Assembly (NCBI GenBank): GCA_938002255.1
Contig: CALLAL010000008.1
Coordinates: 1 to 64,000 of the forward strand
Source of the DNA: an uncultured bacterium
GTDB taxonomy: Bacteria > Desulfobacterota > BSN033 > UBA1163
DNA: 64,000 nt
Direction: 5' to 3'
The notes beneath the pieces were generated by a model. The model had not been told where the DNA came from. It did no database searches and saw only the letters and a program-made list of their open reading frames with translations. Shown here piece by piece: positions 43,753-60,998 of this stretch. Position 1 is the stretch's first letter. Each line of letters begins with the position of its first letter. Made by a program: the position numbers and the translations under genes.

Positions 43753-44919
43753 ATGAGAGTACTGGTGACAGATGGACACTTTCGAAAGACCCTCGCCGTT
43801 GTTCGATCCCTCGGTCGAAAAGGGGTTCAGGTGACCGTGGGAGAGAGAACCTATTTGAATACCTCTTTCTTTTCGAAGTATTGTTCAAAACGACTCCTCT
43901 ATCCTTCTCCACGGCAACATCCAGATCAATTTCTTTCCTTTCTCTTAAAGGAGATAAAAAAAAATCGTTACGACTGCCTCTTCCCCATGGAGGAGGAAAC
44001 GCTCCTGCTGATGGCCAAGTTTCGCTCAGAGATTTCAAAATATAGCTACCTGCTCATTCCCCCTCTTGAAACGGTTGAATTTGTTCGGGACAAGGGAAAG
44101 TTAATTCCGTTTGCCGAGCGTCACGGCATCCCCGTGCCGAAGACCTCTGAAACTCCCTCTGTCCTGCCCCTCTCCCCTCTGGGTCGAGGGCAAGGGGAGG
44201 GGTATGTTATCAAGCCCCGTGTCAGTTCCGGCTCCTTTGGGATTGTTTATGTTAAAAGAAAGCATGACCTTCCTGCTTCCTACCAGAAAGTTCACGAACG
44301 TTACCCCTTTCCATTAATTCAGGAATACATTCCCGATGGAGGCGGCACTTTTGGGCTCTCTGCCCTTTTTGACGAATCCTCCAATGTAAGAGCTGCTTTT
44401 GTACATAAAAAATTGCGAATGTACCCTGTTGAAGGTGGACCGAGTACCTTAAGGGAGGGGGTGGAGCATCCCCAGATCATGGAGTTGGGACTTTCGCTTC
44501 TTAAAGCCTTGAACTGGGTGGGCGTAGCGATGGTCGAATTTAAGGTTGATCCGAGAGATGGACTTCCCAAGCTGATGGAGGTGAATCCTCGTTTTTGGGG
44601 TTCCTTACAATTGGCCATCTTCTCGGAGGTTGATTTTCCCTACCTCATGTTGAAGATGGCGAAGGGAGAGACGTTTCATCCGGTTCTTCGTTATCCGGTC
44701 GGACGACGGAGTCGATGGCTTCTCTTTGGAGATATCCTCCATTTTTTTAAGAACCCAGAACGGTTTCGTCTTCAGCCCCCCTTTTTTCAAATCTTTGAGC
44801 CGAACACCTGTGACGATATGATTTCATGGGATGATCCCTTCCCCATCCTCGGCGCCATGGCCACCTTCTTCACCTTTCTCTACGATCCCGAAATGAAACG
44901 CTTCCTTGAAAGACGATAA
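43753..44919 (+). CDS. ATP-grasp enzyme, first gene of the accessory cluster
   Basis: A 388-residue protein with an N-terminal pre-ATP-grasp region and an ATP-grasp core: YVIKPRVSSGSFGIVYV, PLIQEYIPDGGG and a metal-binding MEVNPRFWGSLQLAI. The family ligates carboxylates to amines or thiols; the substrate is unknown. Residues about 137-150 (LPLSPLGRGQGEG) are encoded by a palindromic repeat and are missing in the logic of the fold. It is followed by a GT2 gene 109 nt later. Confidence 0.85.
   Translation: MRVLVTDGHFRKTLAVVRSLGRKGVQVTVGERTYLNTSFFSKYCSKRLLYPSPRQHPDQFLSFLLKEIKKNRYDCLFPMEEETLLLMAKFRSEISKYSYLLIPPLETVEFVRDKGKLIPFAERHGIPVPKTSETPSVLPLSPLGRGQGEGYVIKPRVSSGSFGIVYVKRKHDLPASYQKVHERYPFPLIQEYIPDGGGTFGLSALFDESSNVRAAFVHKKLRMYPVEGGPSTLREGVEHPQIMELGLSLLKALNWVGVAMVEFKVDPRDGLPKLMEVNPRFWGSLQLAIFSEVDFPYLMLKMAKGETFHPVLRYPVGRRSRWLLFGDILHFFKNPERFRLQPPFFQIFEPNTCDDMISWDDPFPILGAMATFFTFLYDPEMKRFLERR
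44161..44203. repeat. Palindromic repeat inserted in frame in the ATP-grasp gene
   Basis: CCCCTCTCCCC around 44167-44177 is inverted as AAGGGGAGGGG near 44192-44202, with CTGGGTCGAGGG between. It resembles the CCTCTCCCTCTGGGAGAGGG-type intergenic palindromes known from many bacteria, but here it lies inside a coding frame without breaking it. Confidence 0.55.
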
Positions 44920-45028: not shown

Positions 45029-45748
45029 ATGTTACTTGACCACGAGATTGAGACGACTCCGATGAAAAAGACCCTTTTGGACAGAATCTGTGTTCTCATT
45101 CCTGCTTATAATGCGGCTGGTACGCTCGGTACAGTTCTGACAAAAGTGTGCTCTTTAGGTTTCGATACGATTGTGGTGAATGATGGATCCACCGATCAGA
45201 CGGCTCAAATTGCCAAAGAGTATGGAGCACATCTTTTGGAACATCCTCGAAATCTCGGAAAAGGAGCAGCCCTTCGTACTGGCTTCCACTATCTCCTCGA
45301 GAAAGATTATCACCTGGTCATTACCCTTGACGCAGATGGACAGCATGACCCTGGTGACATCCCCTCGCTTCTAAAAATCTTTTACATCGTCCAACCTGAT
45401 CTCCTGATTGCCTCACGGGCGGGAAAGTTTGATCAAATGACGTTTCTCCGTCGTTTCTGGAATCGACTGGGAGTCAAAGCAGTCTCACGGCTCTGTCATG
45501 CCGATATCACGGATAGCCAATCCGGATTCCGGCTGATCCACACAGAGGTATTAAAAGAAATTTCATTGACAACAAACGGATTTGAGATGGAGCTGGAGCT
45601 TCTGATCAAGGCTTGCAAAAAGAGGTTTGGTGTGTTATCCATTCCAATTAGTGTGCAAAAGGTGGACGGGACGAGCTCCAGCCATTTCAGGCCCATAACC
45701 GATACCTGGCGTGTCTGCAAACTCTTTCTTCGAAGTCTTTTCTGGTGA
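45029..45748 (+). CDS. GT2-family glycosyltransferase, dolichyl-phosphate-mannose-synthase-like
   Basis: A 239-residue cytoplasmic GT-A enzyme with VLIPAYNAAGTLGTVL, TIVVNDGSTDQT, NLGKGAALRTGF and the DxD-like LDADGQHDP. The SQSGFRL block and absence of membrane helices fit polyprenyl-phosphate or lipid-linked acceptors being served by a soluble enzyme. An ATG at 45062 is an alternative start. The donor and acceptor are unknown; it overlaps the next gene's ribosome binding region. Confidence 0.87.
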   Translation: MLLDHEIETTPMKKTLLDRICVLIPAYNAAGTLGTVLTKVCSLGFDTIVVNDGSTDQTAQIAKEYGAHLLEHPRNLGKGAALRTGFHYLLEKDYHLVITLDADGQHDPGDIPSLLKIFYIVQPDLLIASRAGKFDQMTFLRRFWNRLGVKAVSRLCHADITDSQSGFRLIHTEVLKEISLTTNGFEMELELLIKACKKRFGVLSIPISVQKVDGTSSSHFRPITDTWRVCKLFLRSLFW

Positions 45749-45753
45749 GGCCC

Positions 45754-47154
45754 ATGGATCTTTATCAAAAAGCAAAGTTTTATTCGATCTCGAAATTTAC
45801 GACCACGGCTCTGTCTCTTCTGGCCAATACTTCCAAAGAGAATCTAATTCGTCTCAGTTATCTGGCTGAGAGAATTCCCCATAAAGAGTCGTATCGTGAG
45901 AAGATTCGATGGATCCGCACGCTCTTTCAGAACGATCATCCGGCTTTGACCATTGCCAGAAGGCTGCTTAACGAAACCCATCCCTATCATCGGAAAAAGA
46001 TCATCACCAATTTTATCATTAACCAGCTTCTGGTGGGCACCAATCGGAGGAGGGTTTTTGAAGAGCAGAGAGGGTTTAAACCGCCCAATGCCATGTTGAT
46101 TAGCCCCACGATGCGATGCAACCTCCGATGCTTTGGATGTTATTCGGGTTCTTATTCCACCCAGGAGGAGCTCTCTTTTGACGTGATTGATCGACTGATT
46201 CATGAGTGCAATGAGATGGGAATCTATCTTGTCATCATCACGGGTGGAGAGCCTTTTTTGAGAAGAGATCTTTTTGATCTCTTTGAAAAACACCCAAACT
46301 CGATCTTTCAGGTCTATACCAATGGGACTCTGATTAACGAGGCGATGGTGGAGCAATTTGTGGCTTTGGGAAATGTGGTCCCAGCCCTCAGTCTCGAAGG
46401 AATGGAAGAGGAGACGGATGCCCGGAGGGGAAAGGGCCATTTTGATCGGATGGTTCGTGTGATGGACCTGCTCAAAAGGGCGGGGATCTTCTTTGCGATT
46501 TCAACCACCCAGACCAAGCTCAACACTGAGATCATCGGAAGTGACCGTTTTATCGACTTCTTGGTGGAGAAAGGGTGTATCTTTCTCTGGAACTTCCACT
46601 ATATCCCTATTGGCCGGGACGCCGATCTCACGCTGATGGCAACCCCTGAACAGAGGGCTTGGATACGGGAACGGTTTGCCTATTTCCGAGCCACCAAGGC
46701 CCTGCTTATGGTGGACTTCTGGAACGATGGATGCCTCACGGAAGGATGTATCGCAGGAGGAAGAAAATATTTTCATGTCAATGCACGAGGTGACTTAGAA
46801 CCCTGTGTCTTTTGCCATTTCGCCTATGACAACATCAAGGAGAAATCTCTTGTTGAGGCCTTGAACTCTCCCTTGTTTCAGGAAATTCGTGCCCGACAGC
46901 CCTTTTCAGATAACTTTTTTATCAACTGTCCGCTGATCGATCATCCCGAACACGGGAAGGAATTTGCCCTTAAATATGCAAAGTATTTTACCCATCCAGG
47001 AGCCGAAGGATTTTTTACAGACCTATCGCCGGCCATTGAGGCTTATTCTAAGACCTATCGGACAATGGCAGAAGCGGCCTGGAGGGAAAGGATGGAGAGT
47101 CGAAAGGAACAATCTCCACCCCATGAGAAAAAGGTTGCAGGTCAACATGGATGA
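45754..47154 (+). CDS. Radical SAM protein with SPASM-like C-terminus
   Basis: A 466-residue enzyme with the radical SAM cluster at Cys122, Cys126 and Cys129 (CNLRCFGC), GGEP and a C-terminal cysteine set (CIAGGRKYFHVNARGDLEPCVFC) that could bind an auxiliary Fe-S cluster. It belongs to a widespread but uncharacterised family in anaerobes. ATG 45754 is preceded by GGTGAGG; the GTG at 45745 is the other option. It overlaps the next gene by 4 bases. Confidence 0.87.
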   Translation: MDLYQKAKFYSISKFTTTALSLLANTSKENLIRLSYLAERIPHKESYREKIRWIRTLFQNDHPALTIARRLLNETHPYHRKKIITNFIINQLLVGTNRRRVFEEQRGFKPPNAMLISPTMRCNLRCFGCYSGSYSTQEELSFDVIDRLIHECNEMGIYLVIITGGEPFLRRDLFDLFEKHPNSIFQVYTNGTLINEAMVEQFVALGNVVPALSLEGMEEETDARRGKGHFDRMVRVMDLLKRAGIFFAISTTQTKLNTEIIGSDRFIDFLVEKGCIFLWNFHYIPIGRDADLTLMATPEQRAWIRERFAYFRATKALLMVDFWNDGCLTEGCIAGGRKYFHVNARGDLEPCVFCHFAYDNIKEKSLVEALNSPLFQEIRARQPFSDNFFINCPLIDHPEHGKEFALKYAKYFTHPGAEGFFTDLSPAIEAYSKTYRTMAEAAWRERMESRKEQSPPHEKKVAGQHG

Positions 47155-48251
47155 AAGTTACCTTCCCTCATCTTGGTACAATGCATATCTTCTGCAAAGC
47201 CATTGCAGAGGCTTCCGGAATCCCCTATATCGTTCCTCCTGAAACCAGCCGTAAGACCCTCACCCTTGGCGTCCAGCATTCCAACGAATGCATCTGCCTT
47301 CCTTTTAAGATCATCCTTGGAAATTTCATTGAGGCCCTTCGGATGGGAGCCGATACCATTGTGATGGTCGGCAGTGGTCCTCCCTGTCGCCTGGGGCTTT
47401 ACGACCTTGTCCAGAAGGTGATCCTTGAAGATATGGGGCTTCACTACCGTTGGCTGACGATCCCCCCCCGATTGACCTGGCAGGCTCTCTGGAAAAATTA
47501 TGAGGAGACGAAAGAACTCAAGAAGGAGTTAAGCTGGAAAAACATCCTCCTCTTTCCTTACGGACTCCGATTGGGATGGAAAAAGATGATGGCCTGCGAA
47601 ACATTGGAGAAACTGGCGATGCGGATCAGACCGAGAGAAATTCAGAAAGGGGAGACTCAAAGGCGTTTAAAGAAAGCCCTTTCGATGGTGGATGAAGCCA
47701 AAACCCTTCGGACTCTTGATCAAGCCTTAGAGCGAGGGAAGAGGTTGCTTCAAGGGACCGAGCAGGATGTTTCTCGAGTTCCTTTTAAGATTGCCATGGT
47801 GGGAGAACTCTATACGGTGATGGATCCTCACATCAACCGCGGCGTGGAGCAGAAGCTGGGTGAATTAGGAGCCGAGGTGACCCGCAGTTCCTGGTTTTCC
47901 ACGCATATCCTGAGAAGTTTGAGAAGGAACAAAGCCGATCAAGCCTCTGAGAGGGTTCGATTTTTCGAGGCCTCGAGGGCCTATCTCGGTTATGATGTGG
48001 GTGCAGAGTGTAATGTTTCGATTGGAGAGGCCATCGTGAGAGCTCAGGAGGGCTTTGATGGCGTGGTGCATCTCATGCCTTTTGCTTGCATGCCAGAGAC
48101 CACGGCATCCGGAATTCTGACCCGTGTCGGAAAGGATTGGAATATTCCTATCCTCACCCTCATCCTGGACGAACAGGAGATCGAGGGCCGTATCCAGACT
48201 TTACTCGAAGCCTTTGTGGAGATGTTACAATGGAAGAGAAAGGCCGGATAG
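47151..48251 (+). CDS. 2-Hydroxyacyl-CoA dehydratase HgdB-like protein (COG3581 type)
   Basis: A 366-residue protein related to the B-type subunit of 2-hydroxyacyl-CoA dehydratases and benzoyl-CoA reductases, but of the COG3581-like branch whose substrates are unknown. Conserved cysteines lie in HSNECICLPFK (Cys47 and Cys49), GPPCRLG (about Cys79) and PFACMPE and could ligate an Fe-S cluster. In other anaerobes this part is fused to the next two proteins in one polypeptide of over 1,000 residues. Here the three are separate genes in a row, overlapping by 22 bases. Confidence 0.8.
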   Translation: MKVTFPHLGTMHIFCKAIAEASGIPYIVPPETSRKTLTLGVQHSNECICLPFKIILGNFIEALRMGADTIVMVGSGPPCRLGLYDLVQKVILEDMGLHYRWLTIPPRLTWQALWKNYEETKELKKELSWKNILLFPYGLRLGWKKMMACETLEKLAMRIRPREIQKGETQRRLKKALSMVDEAKTLRTLDQALERGKRLLQGTEQDVSRVPFKIAMVGELYTVMDPHINRGVEQKLGELGAEVTRSSWFSTHILRSLRRNKADQASERVRFFEASRAYLGYDVGAECNVSIGEAIVRAQEGFDGVVHLMPFACMPETTASGILTRVGKDWNIPILTLILDEQEIEGRIQTLLEAFVEMLQWKRKAG

Positions 48252-49231
48252 GGATTCCCAGGGCCTTGATGTTCTATCGCTATTTTCCTCTCTGGAAAGT
48301 CTTTTTTGAGGAATTAGGTTGGAACGTGCGTGTTTCAGACGGTTTGGATAAAAGGGGAAACATCGTCTATCTTGAAGACAGTTGCTTTCCAATGAAACTT
48401 CTGGTCACCCATTCTTTGGTACTGAAGACTCAAGTCGATTATCTCTATCTCCCGAGATTGGTCAGCCTTCACAGACACCATATGATGTGTCCAAAATTTC
48501 GGGGTGCCCCAGATATTGTTCGCTTAGCCACGGACGGAATGGTTCCTATTCTCGATGATCTTGTTGATCTCAGGGTGAAAGGACATTCCATGCGGGAGTC
48601 TCTCTTAAAGACAGGCAAACGATTGGGAGCGAAAGAGGCAGAGAGTAAACAAGCCTTTCAAAAGGCAGAGGCGTTCTTTTTAAATTTCCAGAAGCGATGG
48701 TTAGAACGGATCAACAACCTTCCCATTAAACAGGTGTTTGATCTTGAAGCTCCGGAAGGGGTAGAGGAACCAGAAAAAACATTTCGAGTGGCCTTCATCG
48801 GGCACCCTTACAATCTCTTCGATCCCGATGTGAGCAAAGAGATCCTTACTTTTGCTAAATCTCTGGGGATGAGGGTCATCACGTCCGAGACGCTCTCAGA
48901 GAGAGAGATCAATGCTCAGCTTTCAGATCTTTCCAAGGAGGTCTACTGGTCTTCAGGGAGGGAGATTGTAGGGTCCCTGTTCCATTTCCTTTCAGGAGGG
49001 GTGGATGGGATGATCTTTCTTACCTCTTTTAAGTGTGGGATCGATGCCCTCCTTCAGGAATTGATTCGGAGGAAGTTGAAGAGGAGCGGAAAGGTATCTC
49101 CTCCCCTTCTCATTCTCTCCCTTGATGAGCATTCGGGAAGAGAAGGGTTGATGACCCGGTTGGAAGCATTTCGGGATGTGATGGAAGAGAGGAGGCATGA
49201 GTTCAACCTGACTTACGTGCGAAGCACCTAA
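48230..49231 (+). CDS. Activase-associated protein, DUF2229/COG3580 type
   Basis: A 333-residue protein with the DUF2229 pattern IGIPRALMFYRYFPLWKVFFEELG and cysteines in EDSCFPMK, MMCPKFRG and SFKCGIDALL that suit Fe-S ligation. In fused homologues it is joined to the HgdB-like and activase parts. ATG 48230 overlaps the previous gene's end; the open frame from 48086 lies in another frame of that gene. Function unknown. Confidence 0.8.
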   Translation: MEEKGRIGIPRALMFYRYFPLWKVFFEELGWNVRVSDGLDKRGNIVYLEDSCFPMKLLVTHSLVLKTQVDYLYLPRLVSLHRHHMMCPKFRGAPDIVRLATDGMVPILDDLVDLRVKGHSMRESLLKTGKRLGAKEAESKQAFQKAEAFFLNFQKRWLERINNLPIKQVFDLEAPEGVEEPEKTFRVAFIGHPYNLFDPDVSKEILTFAKSLGMRVITSETLSEREINAQLSDLSKEVYWSSGREIVGSLFHFLSGGVDGMIFLTSFKCGIDALLQELIRRKLKRSGKVSPPLLILSLDEHSGREGLMTRLEAFRDVMEERRHEFNLTYVRST

Positions 49232-49288
49232 AGTTTACACCTTTCAATATGAGGCGCCTTCAATCACTTGAGTCGCTATAAAAACATT

Positions 49289-50242
49289 ATGGGAAACTTT
49301 TTGGGAATTGATGTCGGTTCAATCACAACGAAGATGGTCGTGATCGATGAAAGCCATAAACTTTTGGCAGGACTCTATCTGCGCAATAATGGCCGACCTC
49401 TCGAAACCATCCAGCAGGGGCTGGCAATCCTTGCCTCTCGATTAGGCGATGACCAAGCCATCGATGGGGTCGCGACGACAGGAAGTGCGCGACACCTGGC
49501 TGCTTACCTTGTGGGAGCAGACCTTATAAAGAATGAGATCACCGCCCATTCCGTTGCTGTGATCGATCTTTTTCCGAAGACCAAGACCATCTTCGAGATT
49601 GGGGGACAAGACTCCAAAGTCATCCTTCTGCGGGAAGGGGTGGTCGTCGATTTTGCCATGAACACGGTCTGCGCAGCCGGTACGGGTTCTTTTTTGGATC
49701 AGCAGGCAGCGCGGCTGGGCATCTCCATTGAGGAGTTTGGAAGGCTTGCTCTTGAGGCAAAGCATCCTGTCCGCGTGGCCGGCCGATGCACGGTCTTTGC
49801 CGAAACAGACATGATTCATAAACAGCAGATCGGCCATTCCGTAGAAGATATTATCGGAGGGCTCTGTGACTCACTGGTCAAGAATTATCTGAACAATGTC
49901 TGCCGGGGAAAAGAGCTTCTTCCTCCTTACGTTTTTCAAGGAGGGGTTGCCGCAAACCAAGGCATCCGGAAAGCCCTCGAGCGAGAATTGGAAACCCCCA
50001 TGCTCATCCCTGAGCATTTTGGTTTAATGGGTGCCCTGGGGGCAGCGAAACTGGTGAAGCGGGCAAAGCCCGGTCGAAGCCGATTCAAAGGCTTTGGACT
50101 TTCCAAGAGATCTTGTACAACCCGGGGATTTGAGTGCAACGAATGTGGAAATCAATGCGAGGTTGTCGAATTGCTGGTTGATGAACAAGTGGTCGCCTGC
50201 TGGGGTGATCTTTGCGAACGATACCGCCGTTCTTATCCCTGA
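49289..50242 (+). CDS. HgdC/BadF-type ATPase activase (COG1924)
   Basis: A 317-residue ASKHA-fold ATPase that in known systems drives a single electron into the dehydratase or reductase. Phosphate loops are GIDVGSITTKMVV and FEIGGQDSKV. The bridging Fe-S cysteines appear as Cys128 (NTVCAAGTGSF) and Cys167 (AGRCTVF). A C-terminal tail has six more cysteines (C-x2-C-x3-C and C-x4-C). I chose ATG 49289; a TTG at 49268 is possible. It completes the split three-gene set. Confidence 0.85.
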   Translation: MGNFLGIDVGSITTKMVVIDESHKLLAGLYLRNNGRPLETIQQGLAILASRLGDDQAIDGVATTGSARHLAAYLVGADLIKNEITAHSVAVIDLFPKTKTIFEIGGQDSKVILLREGVVVDFAMNTVCAAGTGSFLDQQAARLGISIEEFGRLALEAKHPVRVAGRCTVFAETDMIHKQQIGHSVEDIIGGLCDSLVKNYLNNVCRGKELLPPYVFQGGVAANQGIRKALERELETPMLIPEHFGLMGALGAAKLVKRAKPGRSRFKGFGLSKRSCTTRGFECNECGNQCEVVELLVDEQVVACWGDLCERYRRSYP

Positions 50243-50267: not shown

Positions 50268-51638
50268 ATGAAGATTCTCCTGATCAATCCCGCTCCTTCA
50301 GGAACCCTTAACGCGACAGGGGTCCTCTTTCCCCCGCTTGGTATTCTTTATGTCGCGGGGTACATGGAAAGGAAGGGGTATCGCATTGAGGTGAGGGACT
50401 TAGCGGTCAAAAAGAATCGGAAGGACCTTGAATTTAAACCCTACGACATTGTCGGAATCTCGACGGATACCACTCGTCATCGCCAAGCGCTCCATTTAGC
50501 TGAAAGAGCGAAGAAGGATGGTTGTACCGTGGTCATGGGAGGACCTCATCCGGGTTATGTAGACGAAGCGATTCTTTCCACCTTAAAAGTGGATTTTATT
50601 GTTCACGGAGAAGGAGAGGTCACTTTCGCAGAATTAGTTTCTACCTTACAGAAAGGACAAGGGGGGGTTGATTCCGTCGAGGGAATCAGTTTTCTTCATA
50701 ACGGTCAATTGGTCCGAACTCCCCCCAGGCCCTTCATTCAGGATTTGGATCAGCTTCCTCTTCCTGCCCGACATCTCATCCATATGGACGATTATCGAAA
50801 GACAAAATTGGGAAGCCGAGACATTACCCCTTTGATCACCAGCCGGGGTTGTCCTTACCGCTGCACTTTCTGTGCCTCTTCCCAATTTTGGGGGACAAAG
50901 GTCCGGATGAGGAGCGTAGAGGCTGTCTTAAAGGAACTGGAAGAACTTTATAAGCGGTATCATTTCCATGCGGTGGCCTTTTTAGACGATACCTTTAACC
51001 TCTTTCCAAAGAGAGTCATCGAGCTTTGCCGTGGGATGATCGAACGTCAACTGGACCTCTGGTGGTGGTGTTTATCCCGTGCAGACCTCTTGCTTCGAAA
51101 TGAGGAGATGGTTGACGAGATGGTCCGAGCAGGTGCGAAATCCATCTTCCTAGGGGTCGAGTCTCCGCATTCCAAGACCCTTAAGGCATTCCACAAGGGG
51201 ATGAACGTAGAAGACACAGTTCAAACGGTTAAGATGCTCAAACAGAAGGGCTTGGAGATTCATGCGTCTTATATCCTCGGTGGATTAGAGGAAAAATCTG
51301 AACAGATTCATGAAACGATTCGTTTCGCCAAACAGCTCGATACCAATGTAGCCCAGTTTTCGATCCTCACACCCTATCCAGGGACGGCCATCTATGAGCA
51401 GGTAAAAGATCGAATTTTCAAGTGGAGGGCTCCCTGGTCCTTCTTCGACATGCAGCATCTGGTCTTTAAACATGACCATTTTTCTTTCTTTCGGCTGGAA
51501 TGGTACCTGTTGAAAGCCCATCTTCTTTACTACACCCGATCAAGAAAAGCGATTCGGGATATCTGGAATCACATCAAAAAACACCGTTTGGGGATCCGAA
51601 CCCTCCTCCGGTTTTTAAGAGACTATTTTGGAGGGTGA
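50268..51638 (+). CDS. B12-binding-type radical SAM protein (1 of 4)
   Basis: A 456-residue enzyme with an N-terminal cobalamin-binding-like Rossmann domain (KILLINPAPSG, GGPHPGYVDEAI, HGEGEVTF; no DxHxxG) and a radical SAM core with Cys195, Cys199 and Cys202 (CPYRCTFC). PYPGT and a basic C-terminal tail follow. The BchE-like family carries out methylations, cyclisations and C-C bond formation; the substrate is unknown. It overlaps the acyltransferase frame but ends before its ATG. Confidence 0.85.
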   Translation: MKILLINPAPSGTLNATGVLFPPLGILYVAGYMERKGYRIEVRDLAVKKNRKDLEFKPYDIVGISTDTTRHRQALHLAERAKKDGCTVVMGGPHPGYVDEAILSTLKVDFIVHGEGEVTFAELVSTLQKGQGGVDSVEGISFLHNGQLVRTPPRPFIQDLDQLPLPARHLIHMDDYRKTKLGSRDITPLITSRGCPYRCTFCASSQFWGTKVRMRSVEAVLKELEELYKRYHFHAVAFLDDTFNLFPKRVIELCRGMIERQLDLWWWCLSRADLLLRNEEMVDEMVRAGAKSIFLGVESPHSKTLKAFHKGMNVEDTVQTVKMLKQKGLEIHASYILGGLEEKSEQIHETIRFAKQLDTNVAQFSILTPYPGTAIYEQVKDRIFKWRAPWSFFDMQHLVFKHDHFSFFRLEWYLLKAHLLYYTRSRKAIRDIWNHIKKHRLGIRTLLRFLRDYFGG

Positions 51639-51639
51639 G

Positions 51640-52551
51640 ATGAAAAGAAAGTATCCCCGCGCGTTTAATCGGTTTATCTATCTCTTTCTCTTCCAATTTT
51701 TTTCAACCCTCCTTCCGAGATCCATCCAGAAATTCTTCAGTGTGATTGTGGGAGATCTCTTTTACCTCCTGATGCCAAAAACAAGAGGGGCGGTTCGGAA
51801 GAATGTTGAGGGGGTAAGCCGGGGGAGATGGTCGAAAGAAAAGATCGAGTTCATTACGCGAAAGACGTTCCAGAACTACGGGCAATATCTGTTGGACTAT
51901 ATGGTGATGCACCGTCTCCAGCCCTCGAATAAACATCAATGGGTAGAAGAGGAGGTAGGAGATCATTACATGATCGAAGCCCTTCAGAGAGGGAAAGGGG
52001 TCATCTGCGTCACGCCTCACCTCGGCAACTGGGAAATGGGAGGATTGCTCTTCTCTTTCAGGGGAGGAAAACTCAATGTGCTCACCCTGGATGAGCCAGA
52101 TCAGGATACCAAATCCTTTCGTGAAGAGATGAGAAGAAGAAGGGGAATCCGCAATATTTATATTGATCCCAAGGATCCTTCTCCAATGGCCGCCATTGAT
52201 GCCGTCAGGGCATTGAAAGAGAATCAGATTGTAGCGATGTTAGGCGATCGTGTCGAGACCCAAAAGACCATGGTCTTTGAGTTCTTTGGACGGAAAACCC
52301 CTTTTCCCATCGGGGTCGCCATTCTCGCCCTGGCCACTGGAGCACCGGTCCTACCGGTCTTTGTGGTGATGGAGAACAGCCGAAAATACAAGGGCATTAT
52401 TGAGGCTCCCGTCTCTTTTGAAGACAACTCCAGGGAGGACCGGGAGACGATCATTCGGAAAGGAATGACGGAATTGATAAAAAAATTCGAAACCTATATC
52501 GAAAAATATCCGGATCAATGGTATAATTTTTTTTCTTATTGGAAACCATAA
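51640..52551 (+). CDS. LpxL-like lysophospholipid/lipid A acyltransferase
   Basis: A 303-residue membrane-bound acyltransferase of the lipid A late-acyltransferase family, with the catalytic HxxxxE at His127 and Glu132 (PHLGNWE), an N-terminal hydrophobic region and a typical LGDRVETQKT block. ATG 51640 has GGAGG just upstream. Set between radical SAM genes and an acyl-carrier gene, it may move the finished acyl chain to a lipid or sugar. That is inference. Confidence 0.87.
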   Translation: MKRKYPRAFNRFIYLFLFQFFSTLLPRSIQKFFSVIVGDLFYLLMPKTRGAVRKNVEGVSRGRWSKEKIEFITRKTFQNYGQYLLDYMVMHRLQPSNKHQWVEEEVGDHYMIEALQRGKGVICVTPHLGNWEMGGLLFSFRGGKLNVLTLDEPDQDTKSFREEMRRRRGIRNIYIDPKDPSPMAAIDAVRALKENQIVAMLGDRVETQKTMVFEFFGRKTPFPIGVAILALATGAPVLPVFVVMENSRKYKGIIEAPVSFEDNSREDRETIIRKGMTELIKKFETYIEKYPDQWYNFFSYWKP

Positions 52552-52636
52552 TGGGTTTTTAGGGTCCGATCCACATCCACTTTAACCTTAGAACCCTCGA
52601 ATCGGTCAATCCTATAATGGTCAAAAGAGGAGAAGC

Positions 52637-52909
52637 ATGGCTGAGGTGAACGAAGAGCTGATTGTAAAACTAAAACAACTTATTATTACAAGACTTAAAC
52701 TGATGGATATGACTCCGGAGATGATTGATACCGATGCTCCCCTTTTCGGAGAGGGCCTTGGCCTCGACTCAATCGATGCCCTGGAACTGGTCTTGGGTCT
52801 TGAGAAGGAGTATGGGGTTATCATCCCGGATGCCGAGGTCGGAAAGAAAGTGTTCCAATCTGTAAGGACCATGGCCCAATTTGTTGCGGACCAGCAAGGG
52901 AGAACTTAA
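52637..52909 (+). CDS. Acyl carrier protein
   Basis: A 90-residue acidic carrier with Ser45 in LGLDSIDALEL as the phosphopantetheine site. It is probably specific to this cluster, as its sequence differs from typical FAS AcpP and the genes next to it are assembly-line parts. Its TAA overlaps the ATG of the next gene by one base. Confidence 0.93.
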   Translation: MAEVNEELIVKLKQLIITRLKLMDMTPEMIDTDAPLFGEGLGLDSIDALELVLGLEKEYGVIIPDAEVGKKVFQSVRTMAQFVADQQGRT

Positions 52910-53820
52910 TGGGAAGAAAGGCCTTCTGTTTTCCCGGTCAACTTCAAGAAAAACCGATTCTGAAGGAAGATCATCCCTTAAGGACAGACCCTTCTCTGGA
53001 GCGATGGCTGGAAAAGGCATCGCTCCAAACCTCCTTTGATCTTTACTCCTTTACCACGAGAGGGAATGAGGTTGGCTTCAATCTTAAATTGCAGATGGCG
53101 ACATATCTCCTCTCAATGATCCATTTCTACCGCCTCCAATCTCAGGGATGGGTCCCGGATGTGATCGCAGAGCATAGCATGGGAATTTATGCGGCCCTGG
53201 CTGCTTCCGAAGCGATTACCTTTGAGGAAGGGTTGTGGATTACGGAATCGATCGGAAGGATACTGGAGCGAGAGGGGAGACTTTCTAAGGGAGCAATGGT
53301 GAGTATTGTAGGGCTTCCTTTAAGCGACATTCAAACCATCCAACAGAGTCTGAACGGATTCTGCCTTTCCATTGCCAATTACAACGGATCCAAGCATTTC
53401 GTTCTCTCCGGGGCAGAAGAGGGAATTGAGAAAGCGATCTCCCTTGCTCTATCCAAAAAAGCGATTTCGGCTACCCGTCTAACCTTTGGTGTGGCCCTTC
53501 ACGCTCCTTCTCTCACCTCTCTCAGGGGAGAAATAGAGACCCTATTGAAAACCATCCATTTTCGGTCTCCCAAGGTTCCCATTCTCAATCACTTGACGGT
53601 CCAACCTTTAAAGCAGGAGGAGATCAGAGATTTTCTTGCCCAGGAGATCGGACAGCCTGTCTATTGGGATCGATGTGTGGAGAGATTGATCCAAGAGGGC
53701 GTTACTCAATTTGTTGAAGTCGGACATGGCGCCACGCTGACCAAATTGATTCGATGGATCAATCGGGATGTAGAGGCTTTCTCCGCAGGAGATCGGTTTA
53801 AGGAAGGGACCATCGAATGA
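52909..53820 (+). CDS. Malonyl-CoA:ACP transacylase-like protein
   Basis: A 303-residue FabD-type acyltransferase. Active-site positions line up with E. coli FabD: Gln11 (FPGQ), Ser90 (EHSMG), Arg117 (SIGR) and His198 (ALHAP). GHSLG is replaced by EHSMG and GQGSQ by GQLQE, so it may load something other than malonyl groups or be tuned to the cluster ACP. It overlaps the thioesterase by 4 bases. Confidence 0.87.
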   Translation: MGRKAFCFPGQLQEKPILKEDHPLRTDPSLERWLEKASLQTSFDLYSFTTRGNEVGFNLKLQMATYLLSMIHFYRLQSQGWVPDVIAEHSMGIYAALAASEAITFEEGLWITESIGRILEREGRLSKGAMVSIVGLPLSDIQTIQQSLNGFCLSIANYNGSKHFVLSGAEEGIEKAISLALSKKAISATRLTFGVALHAPSLTSLRGEIETLLKTIHFRSPKVPILNHLTVQPLKQEEIRDFLAQEIGQPVYWDRCVERLIQEGVTQFVEVGHGATLTKLIRWINRDVEAFSAGDRFKEGTIE

Positions 53821-54239
53821 AATACCACGAGACGCCGATTCAAGTTCGGTTCTTTGAAGTCGATTCGTATGGGGTCGTATGGCACGGACATTATATAGGC
53901 TGGTTTGAAGTAGGTCGGAATGAGTTGACCGAACAATTCGAGATGGGGCCTCTGCAACTCAGAGAGAAAAACCTTCTGGCTCCGGTTGTGGAAGTGAGGT
54001 GTGACTACAAATCCCCTGCCACCTTTGGAGAAACCCTTCTCATTCAGACGACGATGGAGCGGTGCGAAGTGGCAAAATTGATCTTTCACTATCGGGTGCT
54101 TTCAGAATCCGGTGGAAGGGTGCTTGCCACAGGTTCTACCACCCATGTTCTGACGGATCTTAAAGGGACTCTCCTTTATCGTGTCCCTCCAGACATCCTT
54201 CAGAGGATAGAAGAGATGATGAAGTATTTAGAGGTTTGA
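53817..54239 (+). CDS. 4HBT/YbgC-type hotdog thioesterase
   Basis: A 140-residue hotdog protein with Asp16 in the DSYGVVWHGHY active-site motif typical of 4-hydroxybenzoyl-CoA thioesterases. It may release or edit acyl groups on the ACP or CoA. It is directly coupled to the transacylase gene. The substrate is unknown. Confidence 0.88.
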   Translation: MKYHETPIQVRFFEVDSYGVVWHGHYIGWFEVGRNELTEQFEMGPLQLREKNLLAPVVEVRCDYKSPATFGETLLIQTTMERCEVAKLIFHYRVLSESGGRVLATGSTTHVLTDLKGTLLYRVPPDILQRIEEMMKYLEV

Positions 54240-54326
54240 ATCCCGTTGGACGTTACGGGTTGGAAGTTCGGAGAGGTCAATCTAAAATCGGCAAACCGAA
54301 ATCCGCAATCCGAGATTTGAAATCCT
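54240..54326. repeat. Dispersed AATCCGCAATCC-type repeat
   Basis: The gap between the thioesterase and the next radical SAM gene holds GTTGGACGTTACGGGTTGGAAG followed by AAATCCGCAATCCGAGATTTGAAATCC. A second copy of the CACAATCCGCAATC motif starts the gene at 55816. Such repeats recur in many deltaproteobacterial genomes. Confidence 0.45.
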
Positions 54327-55751
54327 ATGAAGGTTCTTCTTATTGATCCTCCCCATAAACTCTTTCCAGGCCTTAGGATGTGGACCCCATCTTTTGGCCT
54401 TCTCCAGTTAGCGGCCTACCTTGAACAAGAAGGGTTTAAGGCTCAGATCATTGATGGCACCGCACTTCCAAATGCCTGGAGAGACTTAACCTCTCTGATC
54501 GCTTCTTCAACAGCAGAGGTGATTGGGATCACTTGTTCAGCCACCTGCCTCTCCCCGGAAGCCCTTCAGACCATCCACCTCTGCCGAAAACTTTTGCCAA
54601 ACTCCCTCATCGTTGCTGGGGGAAGTCATTTTACCTTGATGGCAGATTCCATTTTGAGAGAGGTAAAAGATCTGGACTATATTGTGCTTGGAGAAGGGGA
54701 GGTTGCCTTTTCTCAACTTCTCAAAGAATGGTCGGACGGAGGGGACGGGAAGGACGTTCAAGGAGTTGCCTATCGAGATCATGGAAAAATTCTCCAGAAC
54801 CCCCGACCTCCCATCATTCCCAACCTGGATTCACTCCCTTTTCCCGCTTATCATCTCATCGATCTGGAACAGGAGGCTTACTACTGGCATGGAATGGGAA
54901 GAAGAGCCTTTGGAATATCCACCAGCCGTGGCTGTGGAGATCACTGCGCCTACTGTTCGGAGTCGAAATTCTGGCAGGGAGTTTGGAGAGGCCGGAGTGG
55001 CAAGAAGGTGGTGGAGGAGATCGCCTATCTAAACCGCCGGCATGGGAAAAGCCTCTTTGTCTTTAATGAGAACACCTTTAACTGGAGTCGGCGAAGGATG
55101 GAGGAGTTTCTTGAAGAACTGGGAAGATCCGGTCTTCACATCCACTTCTGGTTTCAATCCCGAATCAAGGATATTCTTCGGGATGAGGATCTGATGCCAG
55201 AGATGAAACGGCTGGGCCTCTATGAGGTGATGCTCGGAATAGAGAGCATTCAGCCGGATGTGCTCGATCGGTATGAGAAGCAGCAGTCGAGGGAGATGGC
55301 TCAAAAGGCAATCGATATCCTGAAGAAGAACGGGATTATGGTGATGGCCAATGTGATGTTCGGAGACTGGAATGATTCGGAGGAAACGCTAAAAGAGATT
55401 TTCCAATTCGTCAAAAAACAGAGTGATTTTCTCATCCTCACCATGACCACGCCCCTTCCAGGAACGAGATATTATGAAGAAGCCGAACGACTGGGAAGGA
55501 TCCGTGAAAGAGATTTTGGAAAGTATGACTTCATGCATCCTGTGATGGATACGAAGTTCTTATCCGCAGAGGAGGTCCAACGGCTCCATCAGGCCTATTT
55601 AAAGAAGTATTATACTCAACCGAGAATCCTTCTGGGAGGATTCTTCAACCCGAACCCCTTCAAAAGGATGGCTTACCGTCTCATTCTAAGATATGTCTGG
55701 GAGAATGCGACGAAACGGCCCTGGAAACAACCCAATCTGGAAGAACAATGA
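54327..55751 (+). CDS. B12-binding-type radical SAM protein (2 of 4)
   Basis: A 474-residue BchE-like enzyme with a cobalamin-binding-like domain (KVLLIDPPHK, GGSHFTLMADSI, LGEGEVAF) and a radical SAM core at Cys203, Cys207 and Cys210 (CGDHCAYC). PLPGTRYYEEA and KYYTQPRI close it. It differs clearly from the other three copies, so a separate reaction in the pathway is likely. Confidence 0.86.
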   Translation: MKVLLIDPPHKLFPGLRMWTPSFGLLQLAAYLEQEGFKAQIIDGTALPNAWRDLTSLIASSTAEVIGITCSATCLSPEALQTIHLCRKLLPNSLIVAGGSHFTLMADSILREVKDLDYIVLGEGEVAFSQLLKEWSDGGDGKDVQGVAYRDHGKILQNPRPPIIPNLDSLPFPAYHLIDLEQEAYYWHGMGRRAFGISTSRGCGDHCAYCSESKFWQGVWRGRSGKKVVEEIAYLNRRHGKSLFVFNENTFNWSRRRMEEFLEELGRSGLHIHFWFQSRIKDILRDEDLMPEMKRLGLYEVMLGIESIQPDVLDRYEKQQSREMAQKAIDILKKNGIMVMANVMFGDWNDSEETLKEIFQFVKKQSDFLILTMTTPLPGTRYYEEAERLGRIRERDFGKYDFMHPVMDTKFLSAEEVQRLHQAYLKKYYTQPRILLGGFFNPNPFKRMAYRLILRYVWENATKRPWKQPNLEEQ

Positions 55752-55815
55752 ACGACGAATGAAAGACGATGAACACTCACTACGATTTTTTCGATCGCTC
55801 ATGGGAAAAGGAAAG

Positions 55816-57177
55816 ATGTTGAACCCACAATTTAGACTCCACAATCCGCAATCGAAAAAGGTTCTTCTTGTCTTTCCACGGGAGAAAGGGGTGAAGTATT
55901 CGAATGATACCCTTTATCCGTTTCCTATGCTTGGACTGACTCTGCTGGCTGCCCAATTCCCCAAACATTATGAGATTAAGATTGTCAACGAGGTGATCGA
56001 GAAAATCGATTTTGACATGGAGGTCGATCTGGTCGGGATCACAGCCCTGACCTGTGTAGCTAAACGAGCTTATGAAGTGGCTGACCAATTCCGTCAAAGA
56101 GGCGTGAAGGTCATTTTAGGAGGCGTTCATCCCAGCCTTCTCCCCGAAGAGGCCAAAGAACATGCCGATTCGGTCTTCATTGGAGAAGCCGAGGGGTTAC
56201 TCGACTTGGTGGTGAGGGATTTTGAAGAGGGAAAGCTGAGACCTTTTTATAAAAACAGGCAATGGGCTGACCTCAAGGAGATGCCCATGGCCAGAAGAGA
56301 CCTTTTAAACCGGCGTTATAGCCCTTTTTTTAAAGCGATTGAGACCACCCGGGGATGCCCCCATCACTGCGATTTCTGCTCCGTGCCGGTGATTAATGGA
56401 AAACGGTATCGGATGCGCCCCCTTGAGAAAATCGATGAGGAGCTTTCTGCCATCATTCGAAAGAAAGGGGAGTATCTCTTTATTACCGATGATAACATTA
56501 TCGCCAGAGAAGATTATGCACTGGGGTTGTTTGATATCTTCAAACGACACGGCGTGAAATGGATGGCTTTTGCCACCATTAAAATCGCCAAAAACGAAAC
56601 TCTCCTCCAGAGGGCTCAACAAAGCGGGTGCGTTTCTCTGTTCATCGGCTTTGAATCTTTACTCCAGACCAATTTGGACAATGTTTCAAAGCGTTTTGTT
56701 GATGTCAAAGAGCTGGTTCATTCCATTGAGGTCATTCAAGGGCATCGAATCGGAATCCACGGCTCTTTCATTTTCGGATTTGAGGGAGATGATCCTACCG
56801 TTTTTAGAACAACAGTTGATTTTGTTCAGAGGCACTGCATTGAAATCCCTTCATTTTCCATTCTCACCCCTTTCCCCGGAACCCAACTTCGAAAACGTCT
56901 GGAGGATGAGGGAAGAATCTTCGATCATGACTGGTCCCACTATGATATGAGCCATGTCGTCTTCCAGCCCAAAAAGATGAGTGTTCGTGAACTCCAGGAA
57001 GGATATCTCTGGGCCCAGAAATACACCTGTGCTCCCCGGTCTATTTTAAAACGTCTTTTATGGGGTCCCCGAAATCACTTCTTCTACTTTCTCATGTCAA
57101 ACTTTGCTCTCCGGGGCGCCCAGATGGCCGTGATCCGAAGGATTCAAAAGGAGAAGATTGGGTCATTTGCTCTATGA
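55816..57177 (+). CDS. B12-binding-type radical SAM protein with DUF4070-like tail (3 of 4)
   Basis: A 453-residue enzyme with a cobalamin-binding-like domain (LGGVHPSLLPEEA), a radical SAM core at Cys181, Cys185 and Cys188 (CPHHCDFC), PFPGTQLRKRL and a C-terminal block WSHYDMSHVVFQPKKMS like the DUF4070 tail of hopanoid C-2 methylase relatives. ATG 55816 is preceded by AAAGGAAAG; ATG 55801 is possible. The first ten residues come from repeat DNA. It overlaps the next gene by 4 bases. Confidence 0.86.
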   Translation: MLNPQFRLHNPQSKKVLLVFPREKGVKYSNDTLYPFPMLGLTLLAAQFPKHYEIKIVNEVIEKIDFDMEVDLVGITALTCVAKRAYEVADQFRQRGVKVILGGVHPSLLPEEAKEHADSVFIGEAEGLLDLVVRDFEEGKLRPFYKNRQWADLKEMPMARRDLLNRRYSPFFKAIETTRGCPHHCDFCSVPVINGKRYRMRPLEKIDEELSAIIRKKGEYLFITDDNIIAREDYALGLFDIFKRHGVKWMAFATIKIAKNETLLQRAQQSGCVSLFIGFESLLQTNLDNVSKRFVDVKELVHSIEVIQGHRIGIHGSFIFGFEGDDPTVFRTTVDFVQRHCIEIPSFSILTPFPGTQLRKRLEDEGRIFDHDWSHYDMSHVVFQPKKMSVRELQEGYLWAQKYTCAPRSILKRLLWGPRNHFFYFLMSNFALRGAQMAVIRRIQKEKIGSFAL

Positions 57178-58598
57178 AGATTCTTCTTATCTCTGTGAAT
57201 CGTGAACATATGCCAGCTCCGGTTTTCCCTCTGGGGCTGGCTTACATTGCGGGAGCCTTAAAAAAGGCAAACCATTCCGTTGAGGTCATCGATCTCTGCT
57301 TTTCTCGAGAGGGTTTGGCTGATCTCCAGGGCGTCCTGATTCGATTCAAACCCGAGCTTATCGGTCTCTCCCTCAGAAATCTGGACAACCTGACCTATCC
57401 GGCTTCCCTCTCCTACCTGAAAGAAGTGGAAGAGGTGATTGCGACCTGTCGGTCTTTTTCTTCGTCACGATTGGTAATTGGAGGATCAGGTTTTTCATTA
57501 GCTCCCCAGGAACTCCTTAAACATCTCAACGTCGATTTTGGAATTGTCGGAGAAGGGGAAGAAGTTTTATTAACCCTCATCGATTTTCTCGAAAAGAATC
57601 TCCCCCTTCCCCCCTCTCCTCATCTCCTCATCAGAGGGCATCCCGCCCCTCCCTGTATTGTGGGAGGGCAGGCTTCTTCAATCTCGACTCCTGATCGCTC
57701 TCTCTTTCAGACGGGGCGCTATCTCGAGGAGGGCGGGATGTTGAACCTTCAGACCAAACGAGGCTGTCCGTTTTCCTGCATCTACTGTACCTATCCCCTC
57801 CTCGAAGGGAAGAAGATCAGAGTTCGAGAAGTGGACGAAGTGGTTGAAGAAATGGAGCATCTCATTCAAGAAGGGGAGACGGATTATATCTACTTTGTGG
57901 ATGATATTTTCAATTATCCGGTCCCTTTTGCTGAAACATTGTGTCGGAAAATGGTGGAGAGAAGGATTAAAGTTACCTGGAGCGCTTTTGTCAATCCTGG
58001 TTTTTTGTCGGAAAATCTTCTCCATTGGATGGTTGAAGCAGGCTGCAGAGGGATCGAGTTCGGGACGGACTCAGGTTCTCCGAAGATGCTTCACTATTAC
58101 AGGAAATCTTTTACGAGAGAAGATGTGATTCGAGCTTCCCAACTCTGTTCAATCTGGAAGGTCAACCACTGCCATTACCTTCTCTTCGGAGGGCCTGGAG
58201 AAGATGATGAGACCATCGAGGAATCCTTCCAGTTGATGGATCAACTCGATCCGACGGCTGTGATTGCAATGCTCGGCATCCGGATCTATCCGGGCACAGA
58301 ACTCGAGAAAATTTCCCTTTCTCAAGGCGTGATTCGGGAAGAAACAAATCTTATCTATCCCCATTTTTATATCTCTCCTTCCCTCCGTGGACGACTGGAG
58401 GAGGTCATCGGTGAAAAAGCTTTAAAAAGGAGGCAGTGGATTGTCCCAGGACTCGAGATCAATGTGACTCAAAACCTGATGGAGCAGATCCGAAAATTTA
58501 AAATTCGGGGTCCGCTCTGGGAGCTGGTAGGGAGGATGAAGCGCCCCAGGGTTTCACCCTTGGGACATTCCAAATCCTCTATACCCGATTCAAACTAA
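57174..58598 (+). CDS. B12-binding-type radical SAM protein (4 of 4)
   Basis: A 474-residue enzyme with a cobalamin-binding-like domain (KILLISVNREH, IGGSGFSLAPQ, VGEGEEVLL), a radical SAM core at Cys198, Cys202 and Cys205 (CPFSCIYC) and IYPGTELEKI. ATG 57174 overlaps the previous stop (ATGA). A palindrome at 57645-57669 encodes part of the linker between the domains. It is the last gene before a 140-nt gap. Confidence 0.86.
   Translation: MKILLISVNREHMPAPVFPLGLAYIAGALKKANHSVEVIDLCFSREGLADLQGVLIRFKPELIGLSLRNLDNLTYPASLSYLKEVEEVIATCRSFSSSRLVIGGSGFSLAPQELLKHLNVDFGIVGEGEEVLLTLIDFLEKNLPLPPSPHLLIRGHPAPPCIVGGQASSISTPDRSLFQTGRYLEEGGMLNLQTKRGCPFSCIYCTYPLLEGKKIRVREVDEVVEEMEHLIQEGETDYIYFVDDIFNYPVPFAETLCRKMVERRIKVTWSAFVNPGFLSENLLHWMVEAGCRGIEFGTDSGSPKMLHYYRKSFTREDVIRASQLCSIWKVNHCHYLLFGGPGEDDETIEESFQLMDQLDPTAVIAMLGIRIYPGTELEKISLSQGVIREETNLIYPHFYISPSLRGRLEEVIGEKALKRRQWIVPGLEINVTQNLMEQIRKFKIRGPLWELVGRMKRPRVSPLGHSKSSIPDSN
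57645..57669. repeat. Short palindrome inside radical SAM gene 4
   Basis: GCCCCTCCC (57645-57653) and GGGAGGGC (57662-57669) are inverted with one bulged base. It codes for about residues 158-165 in the domain linker and, like the one in the ATP-grasp gene, keeps the frame open. Confidence 0.4.
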
Positions 58599-58739: not shown

Positions 58740-59480
58740 ATGTTACTCAAAGATAAAGTGGCCATTGTGACGGGTGGAACCAAAGGGATCGGGAGGGCGA
58801 TCTCTTTGGGTTTTGCAGAGGAAGGAGCAAGGGTCATTTCCATCTTCTCGAAAGATACTGAGGCGGCTGAAAATCTGATCCAAGAAGCCTCGTCCAAAAG
58901 ACTCAATTTAGGGCTTTATAAAACGGATGTGACCCAGTTTGAACAGGTCAGAGAGATGGTGGAAGAAGTCTTCAACAAATATGGTCGGATTGACATTCTT
59001 GTGAATAACGTGGGTCTGATTCGGGATAATTTTCTTATGCTCATGAGCGATGAGGACTGGGATTCCTTAGTGAAGGCCAATCTTACAAGCCTCTTCTATT
59101 GTTGCAAGGCGGTCATTCGAAAGATGATTCCGGAAAAGCGGGGGAAGATCATCAATATTTCGTCCGTAAGCGGAATCATTGGCACTGCTGGCCAGACCAA
59201 CTACGCGGCCACCAAGGGAGGAGTGACCAGTTTTACTAAATCCCTCGCAAGGGAGTTAGGTCCCTTCAACATCCATGTCAATGCAGTGGCTCCGGGCTTG
59301 ATTGAATCGGAAGTGGTTTCAAAAATGCCAAAAGAGAAAGTCGAGGCTATCGTCAAATCGTCCAGCCTTGGAAGGATCGGAAAACCGGAAGAAGTGGCCC
59401 ATGCCGTCCTTTTTTTAGCCTCCGATCACTCAAATTACATCACCGGCCAAACCCTCATCGTGGATGGCGGGATTGTTTAA
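58740..59480 (+). CDS. FabG-like 3-oxoacyl-ACP reductase (SDR)
   Basis: A 246-residue short-chain dehydrogenase with TGGTKGIGRAI (NAD(P) site), LVNNVG, Asn114, Ser144 region, Tyr155 and Lys159 (YAATKGG). GAGGAGGATG precedes the ATG. It is close to housekeeping FabG in form but lies in the acyl cluster, so it probably reduces the ketone made by the FabF-like enzyme downstream. Confidence 0.9.
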   Translation: MLLKDKVAIVTGGTKGIGRAISLGFAEEGARVISIFSKDTEAAENLIQEASSKRLNLGLYKTDVTQFEQVREMVEEVFNKYGRIDILVNNVGLIRDNFLMLMSDEDWDSLVKANLTSLFYCCKAVIRKMIPEKRGKIINISSVSGIIGTAGQTNYAATKGGVTSFTKSLARELGPFNIHVNAVAPGLIESEVVSKMPKEKVEAIVKSSSLGRIGKPEEVAHAVLFLASDHSNYITGQTLIVDGGIV

Positions 59481-59789: not shown

Positions 59790-60998
59790 ATGAGATCGAA
59801 ACGAATTGCGATTACGGGCATGGGGATTTTTTGTTCCGTAGGGAAAAATGTGAAGGAGTTTTATCAATCCCTGAAAGAAGGACGTTCGGGGATTGGCCCT
59901 ATCAGCTTCATCGAAACCTCAAAATACCCTGCTAAGATCGGGGCTGAGGTGAGGGATTACCATCCTGAAGCCTATTTTGAGAAACGAGCGTTGAAGAGGT
60001 TATCGAGAACGGATCAGATGGGACTTATTGCGGCAGAGCAGGCGGTGAAGGATTCTAAAATGGATTATTATGCCCCAGAGGAAGTGGGTGTCTGTTTAGG
60101 GGCAGGGGCAGGGGGAATGCTTGAGGCAGAAGTCTATCACCGAGAGATTCTGCTGAAGGGGAAATCCAAACCCTCTCTCCTCCTTCCTTTTATTCCGAGT
60201 TTTACGACGAGCCGAATTGCAGAGCGGTTCGGTATTTTGGGACCCCAGTTAACGATTACCACTGCGTGCAGTTCATCGGCAACTTCCATCGGTTATGGAG
60301 CCGATCTCATTCGAAAGGGGAAGGTGAAAGCCGTTATCTGTGGGGGAAGCGATGCGATGAGTGAACTCACCTTTGGAGGATTCAATTCACTAAAGGCCAT
60401 GGACCCTTTTCCCTGTAAGCCTTTTGATAAAAAAAGGGCGGGAATGTCTCTGGGCGAAGGAGCCGCGATCCTCATCCTGGAAGGTTATGACGAGGCGGTC
60501 CGTCGAGGAACAAGCATTTATGCTGAATTCTCAGGGTATGGGATAGGCGGAGAGGCTCACCATATTACTGCACCTGAGCCCAATGGAGTGATTGAAGCCA
60601 GGGTGATGGAACAAGCTTTAAAAGAGGGAGGCCTCCAAACATGTGAAGTTGATTATATCAATGCCCATGGGACAGGGACTCCGCTCAATGATAAAGTAGA
60701 GACCCTCGCGATCAAAAGAGTCTTCGGCGAAAGGGCCTACAACATTCCTGTCAGTTCCATCAAGTCAATGGTGGGCCATTGCTTGGGGTCTGCAGGCGCC
60801 ATTGAGGCAGTGGCATCGATTCTCTCGATCGTTTATAATTTCGTCCCTTCCACCTTGAATCATCAAGAGGGCGATGGGGACTGTGATCTCGATTATGTGC
60901 CGAAGCGGTCACGGGAAATGGAAGTGACTGTGGTGCTTTCTAATTCCTTTGCCTTTGGTGGGAACTGCACCAGTTTAGTTTTTCGGAAATGTAGATAG
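59790..60998 (+). CDS. FabF-like beta-ketoacyl-ACP synthase
   Basis: A 402-residue condensing enzyme with the Cys-His-His triad: Cys160 ([11 protein letters not shown]), His293 ([11 protein letters not shown]) and His330 ([13 protein letters not shown]), with Lys325. NSFAFGGN replaces the more usual NAFGFGG. It fits FabF-like elongation, and its presence with one FabG and one ACP suggests iterative use. No clear Shine-Dalgarno lies before the ATG. Icd follows 17 nt later. Confidence 0.9.

Follow-up and report, generated by a model that had tools for sequence, protein, structure and literature searches.

To our knowledge, radical chemistry of the BCR/HAD type is known only from catabolism and from small-molecule reduction. 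In (R)-2-hydroxyisocaproyl-CoA dehydratase, two homologous BCR/HAD-fold subunits (HadBC) are paired with HadI, an ASKHA activase carrying a pair of cysteines, and in the system formed by DCCP and its ATP-driven partner DCCP-R a homodimer holds one [8Fe-9S] cluster per subunit (PMC11971306). In BzdNO, BzdO binds a [4Fe-4S] cluster via three cysteines (Cys95, Cys128 and Cys380), and the [8Fe-9S] cluster of BzdN involves six (PMC11971306). On the side of lipid synthesis, the ladderane/PUHC clusters of anammox bacteria and Desulfotalea combine anaerobic type-II fatty-acid synthesis (FASII) with several radical-SAM/B12 enzymes (PMC2649909); the words activase and hydroxyglutaryl do not occur in the text of that study. 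Here we describe three neighbouring genes, referred to as A, B and C, from an uncultured bacterium of the Desulfobacterota, located within a window of 64,000 nucleotides (the whole stretch of DNA that was analysed, positions 1 to 64,000 of contig CALLAL010000008.1 in assembly GCA_938002255.1). They belong to the COG3580/COG3581/COG1924 family, for which no function assignment was found in open-licence papers. Our reading, to which we give an even chance of being right, is that A-B-C form an ATP-driven system in which the AB pair uses one-electron chemistry to reduce or dehydrate a thioester-bound acyl intermediate in a lipid pathway.

Gene A (47151-48251, 366 aa) encodes a COG3581-like subunit of the BCR/HAD fold, gene B (48230-49231, 333 aa from the ATG at 48230, rather than from the upstream TTG given in the list of open reading frames) encodes a second subunit of that fold, a DUF2229/COG3580 paralogue of A, and gene C (49289-50242, 317 aa from the ATG at 49289, with an alternative TTG start at 49268) encodes an activase (COG1924, BcrAD_BadFG). 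All three lie on the forward strand, as do the other genes of the window named below. A preliminary description of the locus had read 47151-50242 as three separate but overlapping genes for an HgdB-like, a DUF2229 and an activase subunit. Gene layout and Pfam matches bore out the three genes, and the subunit identities are supported; the overlap held for A and B (22 bp), whereas 57 bp (36 bp if C starts at the TTG) lie between B and C. Because a radical SAM/SPASM gene overlaps the start of A by 4 bp and only 25 bp lie between the end of C and the next gene, encoding a B12-radical-SAM protein, A-B-C are part of a tight, operon-like run of genes. DUF2229 scored 138.6 bits in B and 45.9 bits in A (gathering cut-off 29.4 bits), and BcrAD_BadFG scored 151.4 bits in C (cut-off 31.5). 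In an NCBIfam scan, A remained without a match, B gave only a weak match to TIGR03286, and NF040772, the family of double-cubane proteins, was not matched. Proteins 84-91% identical to A were present in other genomes of two genera (g1 and g111) and matches at E<1e-30 in 29 of the 395 genomes of the phylum, which excludes a chance origin of A.

When the PDB was searched by sequence alone, neither A nor B could be placed confidently. AlphaFold2 models of A (pLDDT 89.6, pTM 0.89) and B (pLDDT 91.4, pTM 0.89) were then compared with the PDB by Foldseek; all 17 matches of A at E<1e-3 were DCCP, HadBC, BzdNO or MbdNO, and the top 14 matches of B came from the same family. HadBC was the best or near-best structural match of both subunits, at 12-16% identity, and DCCP (7yyl) was matched by A at E 7.5e-10. 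Moreover, homology between A and B was found by hhalign (99.9%, E 1.5e-35), in a register that pairs Cys49 of A with Cys52 of B and Cys313 of A with Cys269 of B, and Cys313 also coincides with the cysteine conserved in the C-terminal motif of HadC/DCCP. The activase C matched MbdQ (9gai), HadI (4eht) and HgdC (1hux), the match to HadI stopping before a C-terminal CxxCxxxC tail of C.

The survey of cysteine conservation took in 133 A domains and 126 B domains, drawn from the fused, Bacillota, tandem and lipid-operon groups. Cys49 and Cys79 of A and Cys52, Cys87 and Cys269 of B were present in every row, and Cys313 of A in nearly all rows, with at least one of the exceptions being a truncated contig. 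In C, Cys128 and Cys167 are numbered exactly so if translation starts at the ATG at 49289, and they lie within the motifs MNxxCAAGTG and CTVFA, aligned with those of activases of solved structure. The claim that all likely cluster cysteines are kept, including this activase pair, was supported, those of A and B being invariant or nearly so across fused and separate relatives, and the possible loss of iron-sulfur (Fe-S) cysteines in close relatives was checked and not encountered. The CxxCxxxC tail was found in 88 of 88 separate activases of more than 44% identity and in all 32 fused proteins, but in none of six other activases; it marks the COG3580/COG3581/COG1924 family. Together, A-B-C show the DUF2229 score, the three invariant cysteines of A and the three of B, and the tail that characterise the DUF2229 family. 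Two further cysteines of A delimit a narrower group: Cys15 and Cys287 occurred in all rows of the lipid-operon group and of a group referred to as 'abc2' (L104-L106, L113-L115, L119), and were absent from the fused and Bacillota groups save for about 1% at Cys15 in Bacillota, while Cys287 also occurred in roughly half of the tandem rows. Cys149 of A was mostly retained in the lipid group and was absent in family f11.

Three universal cysteines in A and three in B suggest, by the precedent of BzdO, clusters of the cubane type like those of HAD, and this number of cysteines contrasts with the [8Fe-9S]-bearing subunits of DCCP. A may nevertheless hold a larger cluster. Set against the six cysteines of a double-cubane site, B has three conserved cysteines and A has three universal and two or three clade-specific ones (Cys15, Cys149 and Cys287), the spacing of which is suggestive of the BzdN pattern, although the profile alignment to BzdN-like proteins covers the C-terminal half only. 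The genome from which the window derives also encodes three pairs of PF06050 subunits (on C9, C36 and C21) and further activases (on C9, C36 and C23), and some of these PF06050 subunits show a six-cysteine, BzdN-like pattern.

The strongest evidence for a role in a lipid pathway came from family f11, in which the three genes are widely separated. Counterparts were found there of A (63-72% identical, in one case in two frames), of B (44-47%) and of C (63-67%); in one genome (G114), A, B and C lie at 245 kb, 631 kb and 825 kb of a single contig. In these genomes, A follows the radical SAM/SPASM gene in six of six contigs (in the window at 45745-47154, and upstream of A in relatives too), accompanied by the gene for an ATP-grasp-like protein in five (43753-44919, which stays with the A module in relatives) and by that for a glycosyltransferase of family 2 in five (45029-45748, in the same gene run of the window). 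C sits beside the first B12-radical-SAM gene (50268-51638, BchE/HpnJ-like) in seven of seven contigs and has an LpxL-like acyltransferase gene (51628-52551) nearby in five. B sits beside a gene for a FabF-like ketosynthase in six of six contigs, with FabZ and a methyltransferase in four; this ketosynthase is 56-59% identical to that encoded at 59790-60998 of the window. Thus A and C have retained their window partners and B is located among genes of fatty-acid synthesis, an arrangement that the inheritance of one intact operon cannot explain. In the maps of two of the contigs (L216 and L219), A was masked by overlapping frames and was located by a separate search. At the thresholds used, no B was found in G209, no separate C in G272 and no A (1e-30) in G010, which draft assemblies may explain.

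Several further features of A loci were observed. In family f11, an extra HGD-D (PF06050) subunit is encoded after A in four contigs (L217:8113-9156, L220:1212-2246, L218:8743-9786 and L216:11775-12818), scoring 114 bits against a cut-off of 28.4 in the first of these, and is followed in several f11 contigs by a gene for RNA 3'-phosphate cyclase. In two genomes A is split into two frames (G159:C182:7009-8051 and G143:C121:8172-9271), by frameshift or assembly error.

In the window itself, the LpxL-like gene downstream of C is followed by genes for an acyl carrier protein (ACP; PP-binding, above the cut-off of NCBIfam NF006617; 52637-52909), a FabD-like acyltransferase (52909-53820), a 4HBT-type thioesterase (53817-54239), three more B12-binding radical SAM proteins (54327-55751, BchE/HpnR-like; 55693-57177; 57060-58598) and a FabG-like reductase (58740-59480), ahead of the FabF-like ketosynthase. 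Among the four B12-radical-SAM proteins (50268-58598), only the last passes a curated cut-off, that of TIGR04072 (lipid biosynthesis B12/rSAM, 392 versus 360 bits), and the other three are BchE/HpnR/HpnJ-like. The order LpxL-ACP-FabD-thioesterase after C recurred in 12 of the 12 contigs that reach that far (families f1 and f2). A-B-C loci of family f50, in which A is about 50% identical, have LpxL, a B12-radical-SAM gene and a phytoene-desaturase-like FAD enzyme nearby; none of these three kinds of neighbour was seen in L113-L115, so that the lipid link is not universal. This setting resembles the ladderane/PUHC clusters in the presence of a TIGR04072 protein with ACP, FabD, FabG and FabF, and in the phytoene-desaturase-like enzymes of related loci. 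It differs in that no phytoene-desaturase-like gene was matched in the window, the nearest in the genome being about 32% identical and located on other contigs. In one related locus, such a gene (L074:12682-14205, reverse strand) is inserted between C and the first B12-radical-SAM gene, and genes related to it were found in L079, L104, L105 and L112. The proposed tie of the family to acyl-carrier chemistry therefore holds for the subfamily of the window, where the arrangement is conserved, and does not extend to the whole orphan family, the context of which differs in Bacillota.

The fold, the cysteines, the paralogy of A and B, the type of activase, and the association with lipid genes, both conserved and independently dispersed, are well supported by computation. 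From these we infer a cluster type, a stoichiometry, a thioester substrate and a direction of reaction as follows. A and B would pair as a pseudo-symmetric heterodimer with the BCR/HAD radical-enzyme fold, in which three cysteines of each subunit bind one cubane-type Fe-S cluster, and C would dock on this heterodimer as a homodimeric, ATP-driven electron pump (AB:C2). The AB pair would then reduce or dehydrate an ACP- or CoA-bound acyl intermediate by ATP-dependent one-electron chemistry, within an anaerobic type-II fatty-acid or polyene-like lipid route that also employs radical-SAM and B12-radical-SAM enzymes. A stoichiometry of 2:1:1 agrees with the fused form of the family, which has two activase domains for each A/B pair.

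A number of observations weigh against this reading. PF06050 (HGD-D) reached 25.9 bits in A and 20.4 bits in B, below its cut-off of 28.4, and the two subunits are accordingly related to that family by fold and are not members of it; the label HgdB-like for A is right all the same, its predicted structure matching BCR/HAD proteins only. The TM-scores of the structural matches were only about 0.5-0.57, which for these models would mean the same fold with much changed domain placement, and the models represent single chains, modelled free of clusters and partners. Gene neighbourhood, moreover, can mirror regulation instead of shared chemistry. Finally, the separate genes of Bacillota (for example Desulfofundulus, Pelotomaculum and Thermincola), three adjacent genes with the same universal cysteines as in the window, differ in their order (B-A-C), lack Cys15 and Cys287 of A, and are surrounded by sporulation genes (spoVA, spoIIA) and lysA, names that were read from the sequences, no family search being made. 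In B-A-C loci from Bacillota and others (L121-L187), the conserved neighbourhood includes SpoVA, SpoIIAA/AB, SigF and DacF by eye as well as lysA, suggesting a role tied there to sporulation or the cell envelope. The fused copy in the source genome showed no lipid neighbours by eye. Given these two contexts, lipids may not be what the family's basic reaction acts on, and the whole family could serve another or a wider purpose.

The first alternative, which we regard as rather unlikely, is that the triad acts on no lipid and instead supplies low-potential electrons, driven by ATP, to the [4Fe-4S] clusters or cobalamin of the operon's radical-SAM/SPASM and B12-radical-SAM proteins. The 4-bp overlap of the radical SAM/SPASM gene with A, its position next to A in relatives, and the adjacency of C to the first B12-radical-SAM gene even where the genes are dispersed are all in line with such a supply, and corrinoid proteins receive electrons from the Ram/RACE enzymes, reductive activases of a different family that also depend on ATP (PMC10418091). 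However, a donor would need no two subunits of the catalytic BCR/HAD type, each with a conserved three-cysteine site, and where the genes are dispersed B keeps company with FabF, joined by FabZ in most contigs, and has a radical-SAM gene nearby in only one contig of six.

A second alternative is that the triad shares one generic reaction with the fused and Bacillota forms, for instance a small-molecule reduction as in DCCP, its place in a lipid operon being secondary. The fused proteins, of about 1400 residues, contain the same three domain families, the universal cysteines of A and B, and the CxxCxxxC tail after the activase; the six universal cysteines and the tail are the same in fused, Bacillota and window forms, and the DUF2229-type family was present, mostly in its fused form, in 116 of 148 sampled genomes of the phylum, which suggests a general role. 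A triad of this kind would nonetheless be redundant, as the genome of the window (on contig C34) and those of its relatives keep a fused copy too, and in this subfamily A carries two conserved cysteines of its own, Cys15 and Cys287, while the lipid context persists even where the genes are dispersed. We consider this explanation unlikely, marginally more so than electron supply, and retain the proposal of an AB enzyme whose substrate is an acyl thioester intermediate.

The relationship to the fused proteins also bears on the origin of the three genes, which had been described as a split of a fused COG3581-COG3580-COG1924 polypeptide and hence as a natural test of subunit roles, a reading that the data do not support. 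The fused protein of this genome has the reverse order, activase-activase-COG3580-COG3581, with two activase domains in one polypeptide. All 18 fused rows formed one clade (100/100) in the tree of A domains, apart from all 53 separate-gene rows, and again one clade (100/100) in the tree of B domains, where the window type, family f11 and the 'abc2' group stood together against the fused, Bacillota and tandem rows (100/98); both trees are unrooted and do not give which state is the older. With the N-terminal part of the fused domain A shares only about 25-31% identity, against mostly 34-52% with other separate-gene proteins outside its own clade. By these trees, the fused and the window-type proteins constitute distinct deep lineages. 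Recent fission in this lineage was rejected as very improbable on the strength of the trees and the coexisting fused copy, and further on the reversed order and the greater likeness of A to separate-gene proteins, despite the occurrence of the same domains as separate genes and the alignment of C at 49% identity to the second activase domain and cysteine linker of the fused protein.

Separate genes are, in fact, common in many Bacillota and others, including the cultured genera Desulfofundulus and Thermincola. Among 80 loci retrieved, a sample that favours relatives of the window A, 55 had at least 2.5 kb on either side of A and 47 of these contained all three genes (B-A-C in 41, A-B-C in four, A-C-B-A-B in two), so that the possibility of the three never occurring together can be set aside. 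A third architecture was seen in L103 (2184-4448), encoding a B-A fusion protein of 755 aa, and in L222 (from 8636), encoding an A-type protein of 742 aa; in both cases the activase is a gene of its own on the other strand. In five loci (L079, L080, L116, L117 and L118) one activase gene serves two A/B pairs.

The fold, the activase and the cysteine sites are thus of known kinds, and the novelty lies in a clearly bounded subfamily that has cysteines and a lipid context of its own. A more specific version of our proposal, which we offer tentatively, would make this subfamily an anabolic, carrier-protein-linked representative of the BCR/HAD type, one that reduces (by one electron, driven by ATP) or dehydrates an ACP-bound acyl or aryl chain in anaerobic lipid synthesis, through a cluster site modified by the extra Cys15 and Cys287 of A. 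If our functional reading holds, radical chemistry of the BCR/HAD type would also serve biosynthesis on carrier proteins. The conserved lipid operon, together with a lineage whose scattered genes have kept their partners, provides a handle on a family that is widespread in anaerobes.

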